In this document: positions 1,732-21,226 of the stretch, one piece after another
Numbering within the stretch: the first letter of the stretch is position 1
Layout of the letters: each line of letters begins with the position of its first letter
Origin: a virus
Direction: 5' to 3' (one strand)
DNA: 33,290 nucleotides
Virus record (IMG/VR): IMGVR_UViG_3300027974_000094
Span: 1 to 33,290 of that record
Position numbers and translations under genes: made by a program
The notes under the pieces: model-generated
Seen by the model: the letters and a program-made list of their open reading frames with translations, nothing else
Databases searched by the model: none
What the model was told of the DNA's origin: nothing

Positions 1732-2490
1732 TTAGAGATTGTTATATTCAAATTGGAAGAAGTCTTCCACCCGCATCTTTCCAGATTCATTTTGCCACCA
1801 AGAAATTAAACCGTCTCGGCTTCCTCTATGAAAGGCATCCACATGTTCTGGATGAATTGTTGATCCAAGATCAACCTTATAAACAAATGCAGGAAATGAG
1901 TAAGTTCTACCAGCATTGTAGACTAGATCATCAGCTACAGCTCTAGGACGAACCCCATTATCAAGCTTATACTTATCTTCACGGACATGAAAGTGCATAA
2001 GCTTTTCAGCATATCTACGATTAATCATATAGCAAGCAGTCGAAAAATCATCTACAAGTCTTGGATGCAAATTTCCAAGCAATTTTCTGGGATTAATGAC
2101 TGCAAGTTGTACGACATCCCAATCGTAGGGAATATATGAGTAGAGTTCCCTCCAAGTGAAGGGCCAATACTTCACAGTTTCTAGATCAATGTCATCCTCA
2201 CAAATTATAGCATAATCTGAATCAGAGGTGTTCAGCCAATGCTTCATTGCCTTGAGATGAGAAGTGACACAACCCACTTCGCCAGAAGAAATTTCCGGAT
2301 ACCTCCCAACGAGTATATCACTAAGATCATCATCCCTGCCATCATAAGCAGAGATTCTTTCATAGTTTTTAATTTCCCAGTGAGCAAATTGTTCTTCAAC
2401 ATTTTGCCGCCTTTCTGGTTGGCCATCGAGATTTAGGTAGTAGATGGGACCAATTCCGTTAAGTTTATATGCTGATTTATTTTTGTCCAT
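1732..2490 (-). CDS. glycosyltransferase family 25-like protein
   Basis: The 252-residue product matches the LPS-biosynthesis GT25 pattern. It has an N-terminal IYYLNLDGQPERR block (family: hNLd.a..R), GEVGCVTSHLKAMKHWL (the conserved cross-S-H segment), and IICEDDIDL (the acidic metal/nucleotide-binding motif). GT25 enzymes transfer galactose or related sugars to lipo-oligosaccharide in bacteria. Its start overlaps the end of the GT4 gene by 14 bases. It is the last glycosyltransferase of a ten-gene cassette and is followed closely by hli. Whether the acceptor is host surface glycan or a phage structural protein cannot be read from the sequence. Confidence 0.85.
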   Translation of the reverse strand: MDKNKSAYKLNGIGPIYYLNLDGQPERRQNVEEQFAHWEIKNYERISAYDGRDDDLSDILVGRYPEISSGEVGCVTSHLKAMKHWLNTSDSDYAIICEDDIDLETVKYWPFTWRELYSYIPYDWDVVQLAVINPRKLLGNLHPRLVDDFSTACYMINRRYAEKLMHFHVREDKYKLDNGVRPRAVADDLVYNAGRTYSFPAFVYKVDLGSTIHPEHVDAFHRGSRDGLISWWQNESGKMRVEDFFQFEYNNL

Positions 2491-3427
2491 GAATGATTTT
2501 TTCTACACTCGGTAAATAATATTTGGTAATGACTTTAATCCAGTCAAAATTCTTTGAGTATTCTAGTATAGCTTTACGATTTTGTAAAGAGTATTCTCGG
2601 TTTTCAATAATTTTTCGTTCTACATACTCAACATCCTTAACTTTATTTTCGGGAATGACCGTAATAAACTCCTTAGTGGTGTCTAGATTGGCCTTACCCC
2701 ATTCACATACTACCACACCTAGCCCTGCTGTCAAGGCCTCCATACAGACTAGTGGATGCGCCTCACCATCAGATAGAAGTACTAAATTACCATACTGAGT
2801 AAGATTCTTATATAGAGTTGGCTTATCCCATTCCCCAAGATAATTTTTATTTGGATTAAATCTACTGTCAGCAATATTTCCAGCAAACCAAAGACTTTCA
2901 ATAGATTGGAACATATGCTGTCGCTTTCTATAGTCAATCTTTGCAAGATAGATACTACGGTCTCCAAATTCTGGAGCCTCAGTGTAACTAAACACATCCG
3001 AGCATACTCCATTTGGAGTTATAAAGAGCTTTTCTGGAGGAATACTCAATAGAATTTTATAGATGTTTGAAATACCTTCAGATAGGCAGAATACATTTGG
3101 CTGAACGTGTCCAAAGGTATTGAAGATGTCCACATATCCATTGAACATATCCGGACGTTCCAAATACCCAAAATGGCTGGTAATTGCCTTTGGGTATTGA
3201 ATATATGGATAAATCTCAATAAATTCATCATAGTGAATATGAACAAAATCTGGACGAAACTCATTTACTTCATTGATGATTTGTCTAGCGTCTTTTGTGT
3301 TTATGATTTGAACTTCGTGTCCAATAGCTTCTAAAGCAGTTTTGGTATCCCAAATAAGAATCTCAACTGCACCCCAACCAGTTGGGGGAATGGGCATAAT
3401 TCCGGGGCCAATAAGTGTAATTTTCAT
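2477..3427 (-). CDS. GT4-like (GT-B fold) glycosyltransferase
   Basis: This 316-residue protein opens with KITLIGPGIMPIPPTGWGAVE, the glycine-rich N-terminal Rossmann segment of GT4-type retaining enzymes. A C-terminal region has PNGV, then SDGEAHPLVCMEALTAGLGVVV (positions about 220-240), which matches the E-x7-E sugar-nucleotide-binding motif (GEAHPLVCME) of the GT-B fold. It is slightly shorter than most GT4 proteins. It sits two bases after a GQPR-family gene and overlaps the GT25 gene downstream. The donor and acceptor are unknown. Confidence 0.85.
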   Translation of the reverse strand: MKITLIGPGIMPIPPTGWGAVEILIWDTKTALEAIGHEVQIINTKDARQIINEVNEFRPDFVHIHYDEFIEIYPYIQYPKAITSHFGYLERPDMFNGYVDIFNTFGHVQPNVFCLSEGISNIYKILLSIPPEKLFITPNGVCSDVFSYTEAPEFGDRSIYLAKIDYRKRQHMFQSIESLWFAGNIADSRFNPNKNYLGEWDKPTLYKNLTQYGNLVLLSDGEAHPLVCMEALTAGLGVVVCEWGKANLDTTKEFITVIPENKVKDVEYVERKIIENREYSLQNRKAILEYSKNFDWIKVITKYYLPSVEKIIHGQK

Positions 3428-3429
3428 AG

Positions 3430-4185
3430 TTACCAGGTGGGTCCTTTACAATCTACTCCACGAACCAATCTAAGTGGAAGTGGTATTCTTACTAAGTCAT
3501 TTTGACTATAGTATCTATTATAGCACGAATACTTAAATGCTTCAGCAACTGGTGCCCAACACTCATCGATATTCACTAGGCCATTCATTGTATGAGTATA
3601 TGCTTTTAAAAATTTAATATATCTCTGCCCAAAAATAAATCCCAAATCTGGGAAATGATGTGAATGAGAGGAAAGATAAAACTTACTAGAATTCAACTCA
3701 GACAAATTAGGATAGTCCCAGATATTTAGATCACTTCGAATGGTGATAATAAAGTCATAAGTTTTTCCAGTAGACTCTAAAAGTTTTCCAACTTGTTCAA
3801 TAGAGTATAATTGGGAAAGTTGATTATGAAAATTCTTTTGATGAAACCTTTCAGTATCAAAACTCTTTTCAATTTCGGAAAACAGTTTTTCGTTAGAAAA
3901 TTCTTTTGGCTTCTCAGTTTGTATAAAGTGTGGCTGCCACTTAGATACAAATCGGTCTAAATCATCACGGTCCTTAGGACACTTCTCCATCTGAAGCCAG
4001 GTGGAGTATTCCCAATCTGAAGATACGTGAGACCTATCCCACTGCTTCTCATTCTCGTCATCCCACCAAAGATGTGCATAGATGTCAGTATCGTATCGAT
4101 CAAAAATAAATTTTTTATGAGATTCATAGCAATATGTATTTGCAGTAAATCTAGGTTGACCATAGTATAGACACGCTACTTTCAT
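3430..4185 (-). CDS. GQPR-motif protein 1, putative glycosyltransferase-like
   Basis: This 251-residue protein is one of three related proteins in the cassette. It shares the N-terminus KVACLYYGQPRF, then RYDTDIYAHLWW, SQLYSIEQVGKLL, YDFIITIRSDLNIWDYPNL, FYLSSHSHHFPDLGFIFG and a late SQNDL with the copy at 5246-5974. The central Arg-x-Arg-Ser-Asp type motif resembles acidic nucleotide-sugar-binding loops (for example in WavE-like LPS proteins). That comparison is from memory and is not a firm family call. The start overlaps the end of the GDPD-like gene by ATGA on the low-coordinate side. The context of only sugar genes supports a role in glycan assembly. Confidence 0.7.
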   Translation of the reverse strand: MKVACLYYGQPRFTANTYCYESHKKFIFDRYDTDIYAHLWWDDENEKQWDRSHVSSDWEYSTWLQMEKCPKDRDDLDRFVSKWQPHFIQTEKPKEFSNEKLFSEIEKSFDTERFHQKNFHNQLSQLYSIEQVGKLLESTGKTYDFIITIRSDLNIWDYPNLSELNSSKFYLSSHSHHFPDLGFIFGQRYIKFLKAYTHTMNGLVNIDECWAPVAEAFKYSCYNRYYSQNDLVRIPLPLRLVRGVDCKGPTW

Positions 4186-4646
4186 TTAAACTTCTCCACA
4201 AAATCACTACAAATACCATAGCAACTAAACGAGGTTAGGCTATATAAAATATCTAAACTAAGATTCATTTCTGGCATCACTAACACCGAATTTGGGGTAT
4301 ATGCTTTGCCAGGATATGTCCATATGTGCCCCTTACTAGTAAGAGTAAAATCATCATTTTGATGCCAAAAATAATTAAATCCACTAGTAGTTCTAGAAAA
4401 CTCATAGAGAGCTTCCAAATCTTTACAGTGAATCCAAAGATTATTAATTCTCTGCCCAAACCAAATCCAACTTACTTGATACTGGGGTTCATCATGACCA
4501 AGGAATAGACTTTTAGTCTTCTTATCAACTCTTACGTCAACCTCAACGTCATAACCACATTCAATGGCATGATCAATATATTCAAGTGAATTTTCAAGTA
4601 GGGGATTAGGCCCGTCCAAATTACCTCGATGTGCTATAAGTTTCAT
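4182..4646 (-). CDS. short GDPD-like phosphodiesterase
   Basis: This 154-residue protein keeps the catalytic pieces of glycerophosphodiester phosphodiesterases: HRG at 6-8, Glu18-Asn19, the metal-binding EVDVR at 35-39 and GHD at 50-52. The usual family length is about 240 or more, so the C-terminal part of the TIM barrel is missing or very divergent. A family member of this size could still hydrolyse a phosphodiester in a glycan or lipid head group. Here it might instead act in making or trimming glycerol-phosphate-type decorations. Its 5' part overlaps the 3' end of the HAD gene by 26 bases. The motif call is good; the activity is uncertain because of the short length. Confidence 0.75.
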   Translation of the reverse strand: MKLIAHRGNLDGPNPLLENSLEYIDHAIECGYDVEVDVRVDKKTKSLFLGHDEPQYQVSWIWFGQRINNLWIHCKDLEALYEFSRTTSGFNYFWHQNDDFTLTSKGHIWTYPGKAYTPNSVLVMPEMNLSLDILYSLTSFSCYGICSDFVEKFK

Positions 4647-5244
4647 TGGTGTAAAAAATAGAACTGTTTAATTCATCATAACTTTCAACTTCATATACGC
4701 TGGCACCACTTGCATAGGCTGCGGCCTTTCCAACTTCGCTATCCTCAAAGATAATAGTATCGCTTGGAGAAACTCCCATCAATTTCATTGCAGTTAAGTA
4801 GATCTCTGGATCGGGTTTTGGGGTTAAATATTGAGCACTTAAAATATGATCAACATATTCAGAAACCCCCAACAAGCTTACAACCTTCTCCACAAAACTA
4901 TATCTAGCATTTGATGCTAAGACAATTCCAATATTAGAATCCTTTAGTTTTTTGAAAAGTGATTTGATTTGTCCATTTGCCATTATATTTTCATCAAAGA
5001 GTATACATGAATAGGTATCTTTCAATTTCCAAATAGAATCAATATCATCATTGTGAATTTTTCCACTCTTTGCTAGCTGTTCCAACTTAGTCAATGTTGG
5101 GATAGTACCAAACTCATCATCCTCTTTTTGAGAATATTCATATCCATAATCCGCAAGTGCCTTTGCAGTTGCTGGATAGTGAAGTAGCCTACTGTTTACC
5201 AGGACTCCATCAACATCAAATATACAGAGTTTAATCTCTAGCAT
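4621..5244 (-). CDS. HAD-superfamily phosphatase (beta-phosphoglucomutase/Gph-like)
   Basis: The 207-residue product has the HAD nucleophile motif CIFDVDGVLVNS at 7-18, motif II as IVLASNA, motif III around the Lys of TPKPDPEIY, and motif IV as IIFEDSEVGKAAA. The helical cap between motifs I and II marks subfamily IA. Such enzymes remove or move phosphate on small sugars. One base separates its start from the stop of the GQPR-2 gene. A second HAD domain is fused to a nucleotidyltransferase two genes upstream, so the cassette carries two HAD units that may act on successive sugar phosphates. The substrate is unknown. Confidence 0.85.
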   Translation of the reverse strand: MLEIKLCIFDVDGVLVNSRLLHYPATAKALADYGYEYSQKEDDEFGTIPTLTKLEQLAKSGKIHNDDIDSIWKLKDTYSCILFDENIMANGQIKSLFKKLKDSNIGIVLASNARYSFVEKVVSLLGVSEYVDHILSAQYLTPKPDPEIYLTAMKLMGVSPSDTIIFEDSEVGKAAAYASGASVYEVESYDELNSSIFYTNETYSTSR

Positions 5245-5245
5245 A

Positions 5246-5974
5246 TTAACCCCTTACGGCATGAGCATCCATTGGGCATGGTGCCAAATCATTCTGAGAA
5301 AATCTCCTCAGAAAGGAACCCATTTTGAATGCCTCAGGAGAAGGTTCCCAAATATTTTCATATACTGAGTCAACATCATCAAAGGCATTTTTAGACCAAC
5401 TAAGAAACTTAGTTCCGAAAAATTGTATAGTGTCTGGGAATCTTGGATGATGCCCAGGAAGATAGAATTTATTAGGATCACACATTTCGAGATTTGGAAA
5501 ATTCGTAAGTATTGTATCATACCTGGCAAGAATTACCCAATCATATGTCTGATTAGTCTCTGGAGCCCTTCTATATGCATCAAATAATTCGGATACAGCT
5601 TTAATTGAGTATAGCTGTGACATGATATTGCTATAATTTTTTTCATTCCAATGCCCTTCTGGATGCTTACCGGTGAAGTTTGCATCGACAAATGCCTTTG
5701 CATTTGGGGGCAATTCAAAAGTTCTCGGCTCATTATGTTGAACCAGAATTGGATTATATTTTGTACAAATTAACTCCAAAGCATTTTCTGGAATTGGGCA
5801 GTTAGAAATGCGGGACCAAGAAGAATAATCATACTCTTCATTAGATTCCTTCCACCAAACATGCCCAAAGACATCAGTATCATACCGAGTGATAATAGAT
5901 TCCTTATAAACCCGTTCAATCTCAGGGTTGTCGATAAATCTTGGTTGACCAAAAAATAATAGTGCTACTTTCAT
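5246..5974 (-). CDS. GQPR-motif protein 2, putative glycosyltransferase-like
   Basis: This 242-residue protein is the closest relative of the gene at 3430-4185. Shared blocks are KVALLFFGQPRF, RYDTDVFGHVWW, SQLYSIKAVSELF, YDWVILARYDTILTNFPNL, KFYLPGHHPRFPDTIQFFG and SQNDL. The ATG at 5974 shares a TGATG junction with the stop of the HAD-nucleotidyltransferase gene; a TTG just before it is less likely as start. The histidine-rich segment HHPRFPD is conserved in copies 1 and 2. Divergence between copies 1 and 2 argues for an old duplication and possibly different substrates. Confidence 0.7.
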   Translation of the reverse strand: MKVALLFFGQPRFIDNPEIERVYKESIITRYDTDVFGHVWWKESNEEYDYSSWSRISNCPIPENALELICTKYNPILVQHNEPRTFELPPNAKAFVDANFTGKHPEGHWNEKNYSNIMSQLYSIKAVSELFDAYRRAPETNQTYDWVILARYDTILTNFPNLEMCDPNKFYLPGHHPRFPDTIQFFGTKFLSWSKNAFDDVDSVYENIWEPSPEAFKMGSFLRRFSQNDLAPCPMDAHAVRG

Positions 5975-7359
5975 CAAACTTCTCCTTTATAATTCTCCAA
6001 GAAGTAATTCAGATCTTCTGGAGTTCCAAGACCCCACATATCATCAGATCCAATTTCCTTAATACGAATTTTCTTACCGTCCTCAATTGCTTCATTATAT
6101 ACTGGGCACACATAGAATTCATTATTTGTGCGAATATTTTTGCGAATCATCTGCTCAGAATACTTAACGTAATCAGAACCATGCTTCCAGTAGTAAATTC
6201 CAGCAGTTGCATGATTACTGATAGGCTTTTTCTCAGCCACTTCTGAAACATATCCATCTTCGCCCAATTTTGCAAATGACCACTTAGGATGAGTTGCTGG
6301 AAATGTAACAATACCACCATCTACATTATCATTACTGAATGCATATAGAGTTTCATTACTATCCCACAGAATTAACTGATCAGAATTCGTAATAATTAGT
6401 GGATCTTCGGTGTTGATGAATTCCTTAGCAAGAAGAGTTGTGCAACATGCCCCTTCGGTAAGTCCTTCAACTTGAACAATGTTACAATTTGGAGTCAATA
6501 GATTAAGAAGATATTGAAGATTATACTTATCATAATGCTCTTTCTGCACAACATAGGTATAAGTAGCTTCAACATTTAAGCCTCCAACAACAACTTGAAT
6601 CATGGGTTTACCACGAACTTCAATCAGAGGTTTTGGGAAGGTGTAGCCAACTTTAGCAAAGCGACTACCAGCTCCAGCCATAGGAATAAGAACATTCATT
6701 TTTTCAGATCTCCAAGCGATTTTTGTTTTAGTGGGTTTACTGAGAATATTTTTAATCTTGTCAATTTTACTTTGTGTTAGATCCTTTCGGTTATCTACTG
6801 GAATTAAATGACTCTTACTATCAAGAGCACCTTGCCTACCAATATGACTATCTTCTACTATAACGGTATTTTCCGGAATGGCTCCAAATGCAATCATACA
6901 CTTCCAGTACATTTCTGGATAGGGTTTATTGCGGGTGACATCTTCATTACTCACAAAAATATCAACAAACTCCAATACTCCCAACCGAAGTAAGATTAGT
7001 TTAACGGTATTTCGAATACTATTGCTAGCAACAGCAATATTATAACCCATATCCTTGAGTTGTGAGAAGTAACTCATCAACTCATAATCCTTATTAACCT
7101 GCTCACCAAAAATAACTAGGGTCTCATCTTGCTTATCTTTCCAAATCTGACTATATGATTCTGGGGATAGCCCCTTCCTCTGCGTAAGAATTGCAAGCTT
7201 ATCACTTGTCGGAAGTCCATCATAAACACTCACATGCTCCTGACGGGTAATTGCAAAATCGGGATTGACCTTAACCAAAGCTCGATTTAAAGCCTCATAG
7301 TGAACATCTTTACTATCTATTAGAACTCCGTCAAGATCAAAAATTACTAACTTACTCAT
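5974..7359 (-). CDS. bifunctional HAD phosphatase - sugar-phosphate nucleotidyltransferase fusion
   Basis: The 461-residue product joins two enzymes. Residues 1 to about 205 are a HAD phosphatase: IFDLDGVLIDS at 6-16, AVASNS motif II, NKPYPEMY motif III and VIVEDSHIG motif IV. Residues 221-461 are a nucleotidyltransferase of the GlmU/RfbA type: MNVLIPMAGAGSRF with the glycine-rich signature, then FPKPLIEVRGKPMI, and an acidic ITNSDQ segment. The linker contains an ATG at 6699 preceded by GGAG ten bases upstream, so the second domain might also be made alone. The logical product is an NDP-activated sugar or polyol whose phosphate form is handled by the HAD domain. The pairing supports donor synthesis for the neighbouring transferases. 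The substrate is not readable. Confidence 0.88.
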   Translation of the reverse strand: MSKLVIFDLDGVLIDSKDVHYEALNRALVKVNPDFAITRQEHVSVYDGLPTSDKLAILTQRKGLSPESYSQIWKDKQDETLVIFGEQVNKDYELMSYFSQLKDMGYNIAVASNSIRNTVKLILLRLGVLEFVDIFVSNEDVTRNKPYPEMYWKCMIAFGAIPENTVIVEDSHIGRQGALDSKSHLIPVDNRKDLTQSKIDKIKNILSKPTKTKIAWRSEKMNVLIPMAGAGSRFAKVGYTFPKPLIEVRGKPMIQVVVGGLNVEATYTYVVQKEHYDKYNLQYLLNLLTPNCNIVQVEGLTEGACCTTLLAKEFINTEDPLIITNSDQLILWDSNETLYAFSNDNVDGGIVTFPATHPKWSFAKLGEDGYVSEVAEKKPISNHATAGIYYWKHGSDYVKYSEQMIRKNIRTNNEFYVCPVYNEAIEDGKKIRIKEIGSDDMWGLGTPEDLNYFLENYKGEV

Positions 7360-8009
7360 ACTACATCTCTATAAAGTTTAGGATAAAATGGATGTTTGTG
7401 AACAATAAGATTATTTCTCTTTACGTTCCAACCTAAAATACATTCTGGATTTACGACTGCACCCTCATTACAAATGTCTTCAAAATCGGGATACATTCTA
7501 CAGTAGGACATCATAGTATCATAATCCCCAAAAGCAAAGGTATCTCCTAGAGCATAATCTGTATGACTTTGAATATCTGTAATATGAAGTCCTCGTGGAT
7601 CATACTCAGATAGCTTACCTAACGGTTCTGTAAACCAATTATCTGTGCGAGTTCTAATGACAAAATCGAATTTCCCATTTCCCACATCCTGAACGTATTT
7701 ATCCACCAATAATGAAGCCTTGTGCAAACTATATGCTTGAGATACAATATTATTCAGTGGGTGATAGTACCTCGGATCTGATATAATTGATGGATGCGAA
7801 AAGATCTTTGGCTCTTCAAAATCTACAATAGTTGGATCTACTACATCAATTACAAATTCTTCAATTTCAAAGTTATAATTCCAAAAGTGTGCAAATATTG
7901 CTACTGTAGTTCCCGCACAAAATGACGACATTAAATATTCTTTATGATTAGGCCAACACTTAATAAAGTCTCTTGGCTGACCAGAATATAAAATTGCAAC
8001 ATTAGACAT
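7356..8009 (-). CDS. GQPR-motif protein 3, putative glycosyltransferase-like
   Basis: This 217-residue protein begins MSNVAILYSGQPRDF. The frame stays open further upstream, but the ATG at 8009 gives the family N-terminus and the short 8-base overlap with the GT6 gene, so I chose it. It shares the GQPR start, an IFAHFW block, SQAYSLHKASLLV, FDFVIRTRTDNWF and FGDYDTMM with the other two copies but is the most divergent. It lacks the HHPRFPD segment. The RTRTD motif is the best candidate for an active-site loop. Membership in the family is clear; the activity is inferred. Confidence 0.68.
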   Translation of the reverse strand: MSNVAILYSGQPRDFIKCWPNHKEYLMSSFCAGTTVAIFAHFWNYNFEIEEFVIDVVDPTIVDFEEPKIFSHPSIISDPRYYHPLNNIVSQAYSLHKASLLVDKYVQDVGNGKFDFVIRTRTDNWFTEPLGKLSEYDPRGLHITDIQSHTDYALGDTFAFGDYDTMMSYCRMYPDFEDICNEGAVVNPECILGWNVKRNNLIVHKHPFYPKLYRDVV

Positions 8010-8718
8010 GATATTCGCCGTTATTTTTAGCCAGATGCAGAAGCTTTGGTTCAAATTCACAATACTGACCAAATACTTCAGGGAAAGCATACTGGGGATG
8101 AAGGGTATTTACATCACTTCGGTTTTGAGCAAAAAATTTATTAAGATGACTTTCGTCATGCCACTGAGCAATCACATTATTTTCCAGATCTTTATTAACT
8201 CTATCTTCCAGCTCAGTAATCATTTCTAAAACCTTAGGAACCTTTCCACCCCACAAACATCCTTGATAGTATACTGAGATATCATCTCCAGTTTCAATTC
8301 CTGCCAAGGATAGTGGATTTACATCAAATGCTCCTGGGGGATTATCATGTGGTGGCATCTTTAAGAAGTGGCATGGATGATGCACTCCGAAATATGAAAA
8401 TTGTTTATCGAAAAAATCTTTACTATAAACTTTAGAGACTGGCATTAAATCTGCATCTAAAAATACAAACCAATCTGCCTGTTCAATTTCGTCTTTAGCT
8501 TTTTGAAGAATTTCAAATCTCTTAAGAGTGATATATGGCCACTCAAGATGTTCTTGCTTGTAGGATTTAATGTCTTCCGGAAAATCTCCCTCACCATCAG
8601 TAAAAACTAAAAAAGTCTTTTCACAATCCGGTAAAAAGTTTTCCTTGACCCGCTCATACCACGAAGGTAAAAAATTTAAGTATTTTCCAGTTCCGATAAA
8701 ACTAATTGCGACTTTCAT
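8002..8718 (-). CDS. glycosyltransferase family 6 (ABO/alpha-1,3-Gal(NAc)T-like)
   Basis: The 238-residue product aligns by eye with the histo-blood-group A/B transferase family. It has FLVFTDGE near residue 37, YITLKRFEIL at 62-71, the metal-binding DAD at 88-90 (WFVFLDADLMPV), YYQGCLWGG at 150-158 where the family has the acceptor-binding LGGFFGG-like loop, and QWHDESHLNKFF at 185-196, a hallmark of GT6. Members move Gal or GalNAc in alpha-1,3 linkage onto galactose-containing acceptors. GT6 genes have been reported from a few bacteria and from a cyanophage. The presence of DXD rather than the NXN of most bacterial members is notable. The ATG at 8718 forms a TAATG junction with the fucosyltransferase gene directly upstream. 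Confidence 0.88.
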   Translation of the reverse strand: MKVAISFIGTGKYLNFLPSWYERVKENFLPDCEKTFLVFTDGEGDFPEDIKSYKQEHLEWPYITLKRFEILQKAKDEIEQADWFVFLDADLMPVSKVYSKDFFDKQFSYFGVHHPCHFLKMPPHDNPPGAFDVNPLSLAGIETGDDISVYYQGCLWGGKVPKVLEMITELEDRVNKDLENNVIAQWHDESHLNKFFAQNRSDVNTLHPQYAFPEVFGQYCEFEPKLLHLAKNNGEYHV

Positions 8719-9521
8719 TAAATAATCTCCCAAGTTTCAGGTAATAAATCTGTAGTATCTAGGTGTGCAAGATTCGTGCCTCTAAACCAATCAGAAGGTG
8801 CGACTACCCGGTTATCTTCTGCTAACCAAGCTCCCCACCAGCTAAAGGAACTATTGGCAATAATATGATCTTCACATAATGTCATCAGACAAAGATCTGC
8901 ATAATTAGTCTGACCTTCGGACACATAGAATCTATCAGATTCAAATATTTTTTGATTCTTACACCATTCCGTATCATCTGAAAAAATTAGTACATTCCGC
9001 TTGGAATCAAATTGTTTCAGAGCCTCTTCATAATATTCAAAACCCAATGTTGTATGATTAGGGTTGGTTACATAATCAGTTCTCCTAACGTGTAGGGAAA
9101 TTGGACTTTCAATTGAACAAATTGCATCTATACATGGATCCAAAATATCGTTGTTAAAGGAAAAATCCTTCCTTAAATCAGATTTAACATTTTTAAAGTA
9201 TTTTTCAGATTGAAAGTATCCCAAAAGAGATACCCAATCAGGACACTCATCAAATAAGTTTTTATCGAAGTTAAATCCAGACTCATTGATCGTTGGTCGA
9301 TCAAAATCAATATACTGAACGTTTAGATTATTAATCGTATCAAGTTTAAATGGAACAAACAATTGATGCTCTTTCCACTCATCTACTACGCCTTGATATT
9401 TTGATGGAGGTATGCAGTAATCGTATCCACGATTTTTAGCAATTCCCTTCAATGCTGCATACTGAAACATTTGATTTGCCAATCGTTCTCGCCGTTTGCC
9501 GAGATAATTAATTCCGATCAT
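8718..9521 (-). CDS. alpha-1,2-fucosyltransferase-like protein (GT11)
   Basis: This 267-residue protein carries the GT11 signatures. They are RLANQMFQYAALKGIA near the N-terminus, SLHVRRTDYV at 142-151 (family HxRRxDY, binds GDP-fucose), VLIFSDD at 177-183, and IANSSFSWWGAWL at 221-233. GT11 enzymes add fucose to galactose in alpha-1,2 linkage, using GDP-fucose. No GDP-fucose synthesis genes are in the window, so the donor would come from the host or another phage locus. It is the first gene of the ten-gene sugar cassette and lies directly behind a consensus promoter at 9544-9572. The adjacent GT6 gene would act on the product this enzyme makes if the ABO logic holds. Confidence 0.9.
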   Translation of the reverse strand: MIGINYLGKRRERLANQMFQYAALKGIAKNRGYDYCIPPSKYQGVVDEWKEHQLFVPFKLDTINNLNVQYIDFDRPTINESGFNFDKNLFDECPDWVSLLGYFQSEKYFKNVKSDLRKDFSFNNDILDPCIDAICSIESPISLHVRRTDYVTNPNHTTLGFEYYEEALKQFDSKRNVLIFSDDTEWCKNQKIFESDRFYVSEGQTNYADLCLMTLCEDHIIANSSFSWWGAWLAEDNRVVAPSDWFRGTNLAHLDTTDLLPETWEII

Positions 9522-19651: not shown

Positions 19652-21226
19652 TCATACTCTAAATTGAGTTGCCCTTGGAATAGGATCTGGAAGCCTTACA
19701 TTGAGTTTTGGAATAATGTTAGGAACATTAAATCCACCAGAAGGAGAACCTGGTAAATATCTTCCTCCAGGTCCAGGAGGCTTGTTAGAAGTGCCCACAC
19801 CGCCAGTAGGAGGAATTGAAGTTTGGGTTTGGGTTTGAGTCTTAGTTTTTGGTTCAACTTGAGATATGGTCCCAGTCTTATTATCAAGACGAACTAAAAT
19901 GCCAGTTTTAGTTTTTGTTTTTGTTGGTGGTAATGTTAGTGGTGGCGTCTTTCTATCAGGCTTAGTAAGTGGTCCTGGAGGAGCTGGTTCAATTTTGGGT
20001 GACTTCTTTCTATCAGGCTTAGTAAGTGGTCCCGGAGTTCCTGGTTTAGTTATTGGAGCTTTTTCTGGTTTTGTAAGTGGCCCTGGAGGAGCTGGTTTAA
20101 TTATTGGTTGTATTAAAGGATTTGGTCTTGGTTTTGTTGGCAAAGGTGCAGTTTTTATTGGAGAAACCTTCAACGGTTTAATTTTTGTAGGAATTTTAGT
20201 AAAGGCCTTAATTGCACTGCGAGCAATCATTCCTTTAAATTCCTGAATATCTACAAGTTCTCCCCCAAGTTCATGAGCAAGAGTTTCTGCAGATTCCTTT
20301 ACTTCATGTGAACAACCACATTCGGACTCAGAAGGTTTCTTTTTTTTTTTACTCTCGCCTTCGGAAGAATCTGGACCCCTTCCAGATACGCTCTTTTGAG
20401 CTTTAGTAGTTTCAACTATTTCCGGAAAATCTGTTCTCCAATTCGAATAATGTTCAGCTTTAATTTTTTTCTTTTTGGGTGAACGCTTTCCACCTTCTTC
20501 ATCCTTTCCTAAGGCACCTGCAATAACATCACCACGAGTTACCTTATCATATGGTGGATAGTTATTTGCAAGATTGCCATCACCCTTCTCCTCAATATAA
20601 TTAGCAGACTCCATCTTAGATGAAGATGATCCGGCAGAAGTAGCACCAGTAGCAGAACCCTCATCTGCACCAAGAATAACTACAGTCTTATATCTTTTTC
20701 TATACTCCGCAACTTGAGCTGGCATAATATCCTTCTCAAAGGTAGATCCATCCTCTTTAGTAATTCTTACATGAACCTTACCAGCCTTAGCTTCCAATAT
20801 AGAATCTACTTCCTCTTTAGCAAGTTTTTTACCACCACGACGAGCAGTTAAAACCGCAGCAATTGCTGCCTTTTGTCTAGACTCTTGACTTCTACCAGCT
20901 AATCTAGAATCCGTAGAAGATTGAAAATCCTTAATAGCTGTTCCAATATCAGTCTTGGCTGTAATCTTTTCATCAAGAACTCCTTCAACTATAGAAAGTC
21001 CTAAAGCCTTAGCAAGTCTAGACTTTCTTTCTGGAGCCATCTTAGATCTTTTCAAATAAGCAACTACAGATTCCTTGCCCATATTCTTCATCTTATTACG
21101 AAGATCATATAGAGCTTGTGTTTCTTCGGCCTCATCACTCTTGTGCTGGCCATATTTTTCGGTAATATAACCTTCTTCAATTTGAGTTCTATAATTTTCA
21201 AATACTTGCTGCCAAGGATTAGACAT
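19652..21226 (-). CDS. long proline-rich, probable virion-associated protein
   Basis: The 524-residue product starts MSNPWQQVFENYRTQIEEGY. It has a helical basic N-terminal third (SKMAPERKSRLAKALGLS, RQKAAIAAVLTARRGGKKLA), a charged low-complexity middle with Lys runs, a short Cys pair (SECGCSHE), and a C-terminal 190 residues dominated by Pro, Thr and Lys. That last part includes at least three PGPLTKP units. The tail ends in Gly/Pro-rich segments. Such proteins in T4-like cyanophages are usually virion or assembly proteins; no enzyme motif is visible. Two AATAAATA boxes, weaker late-promoter variants, lie upstream near 21246. Confidence 0.6.
   Translation of the reverse strand: MSNPWQQVFENYRTQIEEGYITEKYGQHKSDEAEETQALYDLRNKMKNMGKESVVAYLKRSKMAPERKSRLAKALGLSIVEGVLDEKITAKTDIGTAIKDFQSSTDSRLAGRSQESRQKAAIAAVLTARRGGKKLAKEEVDSILEAKAGKVHVRITKEDGSTFEKDIMPAQVAEYRKRYKTVVILGADEGSATGATSAGSSSSKMESANYIEEKGDGNLANNYPPYDKVTRGDVIAGALGKDEEGGKRSPKKKKIKAEHYSNWRTDFPEIVETTKAQKSVSGRGPDSSEGESKKKKKPSESECGCSHEVKESAETLAHELGGELVDIQEFKGMIARSAIKAFTKIPTKIKPLKVSPIKTAPLPTKPRPNPLIQPIIKPAPPGPLTKPEKAPITKPGTPGPLTKPDRKKSPKIEPAPPGPLTKPDRKTPPLTLPPTKTKTKTGILVRLDNKTGTISQVEPKTKTQTQTQTSIPPTGGVGTSNKPPGPGGRYLPGSPSGGFNVPNIIPKLNVRLPDPIPRATQFRV
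19950..20099 (-). repeat. tandem coding repeat (PGPLTKP units)
   Basis: Three units of about 45-75 bases encode PxPPGPLTKPxRK-like blocks at about residues 376-426 of the proline-rich protein. The two units at lower coordinates share the plus-strand string TTTCTATCAGGCTTAGTAAG, so the copies are recent enough to recombine. Confidence 0.75.

Follow-up and report, generated by a model that had tools for sequence, protein, structure and literature searches.

It is not obvious why a lytic aquatic phage should carry a large sugar cassette. One such cassette, in the IMG/VR virus record IMGVR_UViG_3300027974_000094, begins with a fucosyltransferase-like gene coupled to a gene of the family that includes the ABO blood-group transferases; what might a phage make with the two? 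The first-pass annotation of this DNA proposed an ABO-type glycan cap, assembled by a GT11 and then a GT6 enzyme. The proposal is specific enough to test: it names two enzymes, the order in which they would act and the epitope that they would make, and reagents are ready (anti-H, anti-A and anti-B antibodies; lectins).

The cassette and its first two genes

The record was analyzed over all of its 33,290 bases (the window). Its minus strand carries a set of T4-like cyanophage genes, those for NrdA/B, primase, helicase, UvsX, DNA polymerase and clamp loader. The relatives of the record in the phage collection infect Synechococcus and Prochlorococcus and belong to the Kyanoviridae, and the virus is itself a Kyanoviridae (T4-like) cyanophage. 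A cluster of eight tRNAs directly precedes the GT11-GT6 pair, and the pair are, as first annotated, the first two genes of a cassette, which has ten in all; with several glycosyltransferases and nucleotide-sugar genes, the locus belongs to the class of cyanophage LPS/sugar cassettes.

All ten genes lie on the minus strand. The GT11 gene (8718..9521; 267 aa) starts at an ATG and is followed by the GT6 gene (8002..8718). Their junction, GAGATTATTTAATGAAAGTC, contains the TAATG originally reported (8716..8720), in which the GT11 stop TAA and the GT6 start ATG overlap by one base; translational coupling is predicted. Counted from this ATG the GT6 protein has 238 aa; the TTG listed as its start at 8733 is a mechanical call and was discarded. 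The end of the GT6 gene is overlapped by the first of three GQPR-type proteins (7356..8012), after which come a fusion of an HAD phosphatase with a sugar nucleotidyltransferase (5974..7359; PF13419 8.2e-26, PF00483 3.9e-10), the second GQPR-type protein (5246..5977), an HAD-family phosphatase (4621..5244; PF13419 2.4e-26), a GDPD-like protein with a weak match (4182..4646; PF03009 0.03, below cut-off; phrog_34507), the third GQPR-type protein (3430..4185), a GT4-like glycosyltransferase (2477..3427; PF13439 2.8e-4 and PF00534 0.0025, both below cut-off; phrog_33732 glycosyltransferase, 7e-173) and, last, a GT25 glycosyltransferase (1732..2490; PF01755 3.6e-11; phrog_2835). The three GQPR-type paralogues, interspersed among the sugar genes, belong to phrog_13607 (unknown function), begin with a V-A-x-L-x-x-G-Q-P-R-like motif and match no Pfam family above cut-off; perhaps they are an undescribed transferase family.

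Family assignments and a phage lineage of GT6

Both family placements were borne out by HMM search. The first protein scores 91.5 bits against PF01531 (cut-off 23.9; E 7.5e-26) and matches phrog_2644 at 1.6e-103; its donor-binding motif of the HxRRxDY type reads LHVRRTDY, in which R146, R147 and D149 do not vary across 34 phage homologues. NCBIfam made no GT11 call and phmmer found no GT11 relative in the PDB; fold comparison was therefore needed. The AF2 model (pLDDT 94.3) has the GT-B fold of GDP-fucose transferases: its best matches, the top 43 listed, are the fucosyltransferases POFUT1/2, NodZ, AtFUT1 and FUT8 at Z 12-14, with other proteins from Z 10. An alpha-1,2 linkage is predicted for this enzyme.

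The second protein scores 64.6 bits against PF03414 (cut-off 25; E 8.6e-18). Its closest matches by sequence include BoGT6a of Bacteroides ovatus (PDB 4ayj, a histo-blood-group A-type synthase; E 4.5e-25) and human ABO (about 1e-11). The AF2 model (pLDDT 93.6) superposes on 4ayj over 222 residues at 1.7 A (Z 31.5) and on the human ABO transferases GTA/GTB at Z about 27; all 50 of the fold matches listed are GT6 enzymes, so that the GT-A fold is clear. It falls short of the NCBIfam GT6 subfamily NF041524 (170.3 bits against a cut-off of 250), a narrower model that leaves membership in GT6 by Pfam and by fold unaffected. Since both family assignments hold, one outcome named at the start as counting against the ABO-type reading, the placement of either protein outside GT6 or GT11, did not occur.

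The motifs credited to the GT6 protein are real: residues 88-90 are DAD, an intact DXD, and 186-193 are WHDESHLN. In an alignment of 32 phage GT6 sequences, D88, D90, the acceptor histidine H114 and the catalytic E189 are invariant, while W186 is kept in 27 and K231 in 29. The family's retaining alpha-1,3-Gal/GalNAc transfer is the predicted activity. At the metal motif, 61 different viral sequences read DAD or DVD and none reads NXN; most of the bacterial GT6 enzymes sampled have NXN. The latter has been tied to metal independence, and DXD, in a Parachlamydia enzyme, to metal dependence (PMC3961637); by this motif rule the phage enzymes are predicted to require Mg or Mn.

BoGT6a (PDB 4AYJ; PMC3961637) is close to the phage protein in several respects: the WHDES motif, the catalytic Glu, an equivalent of His122, and a single small catalytic domain without a membrane anchor. 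It differs in its metal-independent NXN motif, where the phage enzyme has DAD, and in its donor-selecting tripeptide, which the alignment gives as AGG, where 31 of the 32 phage sequences, and six bacterial ones among those sampled, have QGC. With the human enzymes GTA/GTB and bovine alpha-1,3-GalT the phage protein shares fold, DXD and WHDESHLN, and, in the case of ABO, its predicted place in a fucose-then-Gal/GalNAc sequence; the human GT6 enzymes are Golgi-anchored, 22% identical, and differ in the donor-selecting residues. Human donor tripeptides are LGG (A) and MGA (B). The window's residue equivalent to the acceptor-binding Thr245/Thr134 is Ala. Identity of the phage clade to BoGT6a is only about 34%, and QGC is unlike LGG, MGA or AGG; donor and acceptor may therefore differ from those of the known enzymes. 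A donor prediction from QGC was judged unsafe and dropped.

In a tree made by a quick method, 31 of the 32 phage sequences form a group with three sequences from environmental MAGs, and the BoGT6a group stands separate (SH-aLRT 100). The nearest GTDB relatives, which cluster with the phages at 38-40% identity, are from Omnitrophota, Pacearchaeota and Saprospiraceae MAGs. When signs of a recent origin from a host were looked for, the 80 best-matching GT6 loci among GTDB species included neither Synechococcus nor Prochlorococcus. By these sequence comparisons, phages hold a DXD-bearing GT6 lineage with donor motif QGC, set apart from the bacterial enzymes, most of which have NXN, and new here; it should be of use in studies of how GT6 evolved and as a source of enzymes. 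The Pacearchaeota MAG contig carries a DXD-bearing GT6 (5001-5675) that is 40% identical to the phage query; GT6 has been reported as missing from archaea (PMC3961637), and mis-binning may explain this occurrence.

Conservation of the pair and supply of GDP-fucose

When the GT6 alone was used as query, 27 IMG/VR loci were fetched. GT11 lies directly upstream in 23 and about 4 kb upstream in three; the remaining locus ends before the GT11 position would be reached. The two genes also abut in the named phages DSL-LC03, DSL-LC02, Bellamy, S-CAM9, B23 and SynMITS9220M01, and DSL-LC03 has the order of the whole cassette in common with the window. Among relatives, dN/dS lies between 0.015 and 0.18 in GT6 and between 0.05 and 0.15 in GT11, evidence of purifying selection on both; the two are therefore kept as working proteins, and because relatives carry the same pair under dN/dS of 0.015-0.18, it is not a product of chance. 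Some related cyanophages (loci L073-L111; e.g. L076, 2475-5804) have two or three GT11 paralogues, then GT25, and GT6 is mostly absent from the fetched flank.

The same association is found in bacteria. Of 80 GTDB loci chosen by GT6, 56 have GT11 no more than 5 kb away, many of the pairs abutting. Forty of these genomes, about 129 Mb in all, contain 50 GT11 genes, of which 30 are near GT6 against 0.18 expected under random placement, a null that is too lenient because both genes belong to sugar clusters. By coordinate comparison, GT25, another sugar-cluster enzyme taken as a control, has GT11 nearby in one of nine loci. Given so small a control and the shared preference for sugar clusters, a shared pathway is supported, not proven; the bacterial linkage backs the view that the two families work together. 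The O-antigen cluster of E. coli O86 has such a pair, wbnK (GT11) and wbnI (GT6), which makes a B-like epitope. Likened by description, it differs from the phage cassette as a chromosomal cluster with its own export and polymerization genes.

A GT11 enzyme needs GDP-fucose, and GMD and Fcl (GDP-fucose synthase) frequently accompany the pair: of 80 viral loci that bear GT6, 40 have GMD and 45 have Fcl within the fetched flank, though some loci of this set are redundant and some were fetched by GT11. The usual order is GMD, Fcl, GT11, GT6, and in DSL-LC03 the four are contiguous. Neither GMD nor Fcl was found within the 33,290 bases of the window; both sit past its left edge, to judge from a contig (G057) that is 99.93% identical to window positions 1-25045 (25,045 bp) and runs 13 kb further left. 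In that extension, some 16 kb downstream from the pair, it carries GMD at 572.8 bits (above the cut-off of 415) and Fcl at 464 bits (just under the equivalog cut-off of 500); given the near-identity, the window's phage population encodes the GDP-fucose route. Two features expected of an A/B-type pathway are present, a fucosyltransferase and a GT6 in one operon and a GDP-fucose route encoded by the same phage population; Fuc-alpha1,2-Gal would be the GT6 acceptor. GMD and Fcl belong to a second sugar cluster on that contig (1836-5633 of locus L205, minus strand), together with a mannose-6-phosphate-isomerase-type cupin and a nucleotidyltransferase/phosphotransferase-like fusion. A source of UDP-Gal was sought in the S-CAM9 'UDP-glucose 4-epimerase' and rejected: its score falls well short of the galE cut-off and is slightly higher against Fcl. 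No clear GalE assignment can be made for the epimerase adjoining the pair in S-CAM9, Bellamy and SynMITS.

Parts of this picture have precedents. Two cyanophages were already counted as GT6 carriers in 2014 (PMC3961637), and P-SSM2_268 is already annotated as GT6. P-SSM2 (PSSM2_265, GT11; PSSM2_268, GT6) and ACG-2014f are likewise Kyanoviridae with GMD, Fcl, GT11 and GT6 in one cluster; two ORFs part GT11 from GT6 in both, whereas the genes of the window overlap. An earlier paper on S-SCSM1 discusses its cell-wall genes, among them GMD, Fcl and an alpha-1,2-fucosyltransferase, and suggests that other phages are excluded (PMC9602691). In the open-access literature, which leaves most subscription papers outside its coverage, no paper was found that joins cyanophage GT11 and GT6 as one pathway. 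GT6 and sugar cassettes in cyanophages are already known; the conserved GT11-GT6 pathway is new.

Where the sugars might go

The functional coupling first proposed for the pair is supported by its conservation, by the GDP-fucose genes alongside and by the same linkage in bacteria; the epitope-mimicry part of that proposal stays where it was, drawn from enzyme homology. The original observation was right, and its interpretation, now strengthened, is plausible. A sequential pair, fucose and then alpha-Gal or alpha-GalNAc, is the best reading; its chemistry, including linkage, donor and acceptor, and its site of action, target and benefit are what we infer. Receptor masking, superinfection exclusion and virion decoration are conceivable benefits.

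The perspective that we favor, at a probability of roughly 0.55, sees the pair as a conserved module with which T4-like cyanophages finish host glycans in two steps during infection. That is, phage-encoded GMD and GDP-fucose synthase would provide GDP-fucose; GT11 would move L-fucose from it onto a terminal galactose-like sugar; the coupled GT6 would put alpha-Gal or alpha-GalNAc on the same sugar, giving a branched tip as in the step from histo-blood-group H to A/B type; most likely the substrates would be lipid-linked intermediates of the host's LPS or polysaccharide, modified at the inner membrane; finally, the altered surface of the infected cell would be bound more weakly by other phages or by released progeny.

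Both enzymes look soluble, with no membrane segments by hydropathy. Eight complete GT6-bearing phages were searched with a choice of Pfam models for a Wzx-type flippase, a Wzy-type polymerase and an initiating sugar-phosphate transferase, and these gave no match (control genomes match). The acceptors would then be either proteins or lipid-linked sugars made by the host. A second perspective takes up the proteins: the same two-step chemistry would build sugars in the cytoplasm on a fiber or capsid protein of the phage, and so decorate the particle. Soluble enzymes are in keeping with this, and the lack of export-gene matches fits virion glycosylation equally well. The cassette, however, adjoins host-takeover and metabolic genes (hli, ferredoxin), not structural modules, and no virion glycan data were found; we regard a virion target as unlikely, and because of those host-takeover neighbors a host lipid-linked target is slightly preferred.

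It could also be supposed that the likeness to ABO is one of family membership only, and that GT11 and GT6 are ordinary transferases that work on different acceptors in the making of a longer chain. At least two other transferases, with nucleotide-sugar genes, do accompany the pair; the GT11 partner differs among related phages, some having a second GT11 and GT25; and the QGC donor motif is divergent. Such a generic cassette would not lead one to expect the tight GT11-GT6 adjacency kept in phages and unrelated bacteria, nor the linkage of GMD and Fcl to the pair, and we consider it improbable.

The finishing of host glycans by the pair can be given a stronger form, which we hold to be less likely than not. 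Many T4-like cyanophages would then turn GDP-mannose into a true A/B-type branched fucosyl-galactose cap through a phage-specific, metal-dependent GT6 lineage, and so recode a glycan recognized by cyanophages in the course of lytic infection.

Two further genes of the window, both on the minus strand, lie outside the cassette. One (19652-21226) encodes a 524-aa protein with a weak PHROG match to a cytidyltransferase (4e-5) and none in Pfam; the other (501-1193) encodes a C39-like cysteine peptidase that also matches the phage endolysin family phrog_10051.
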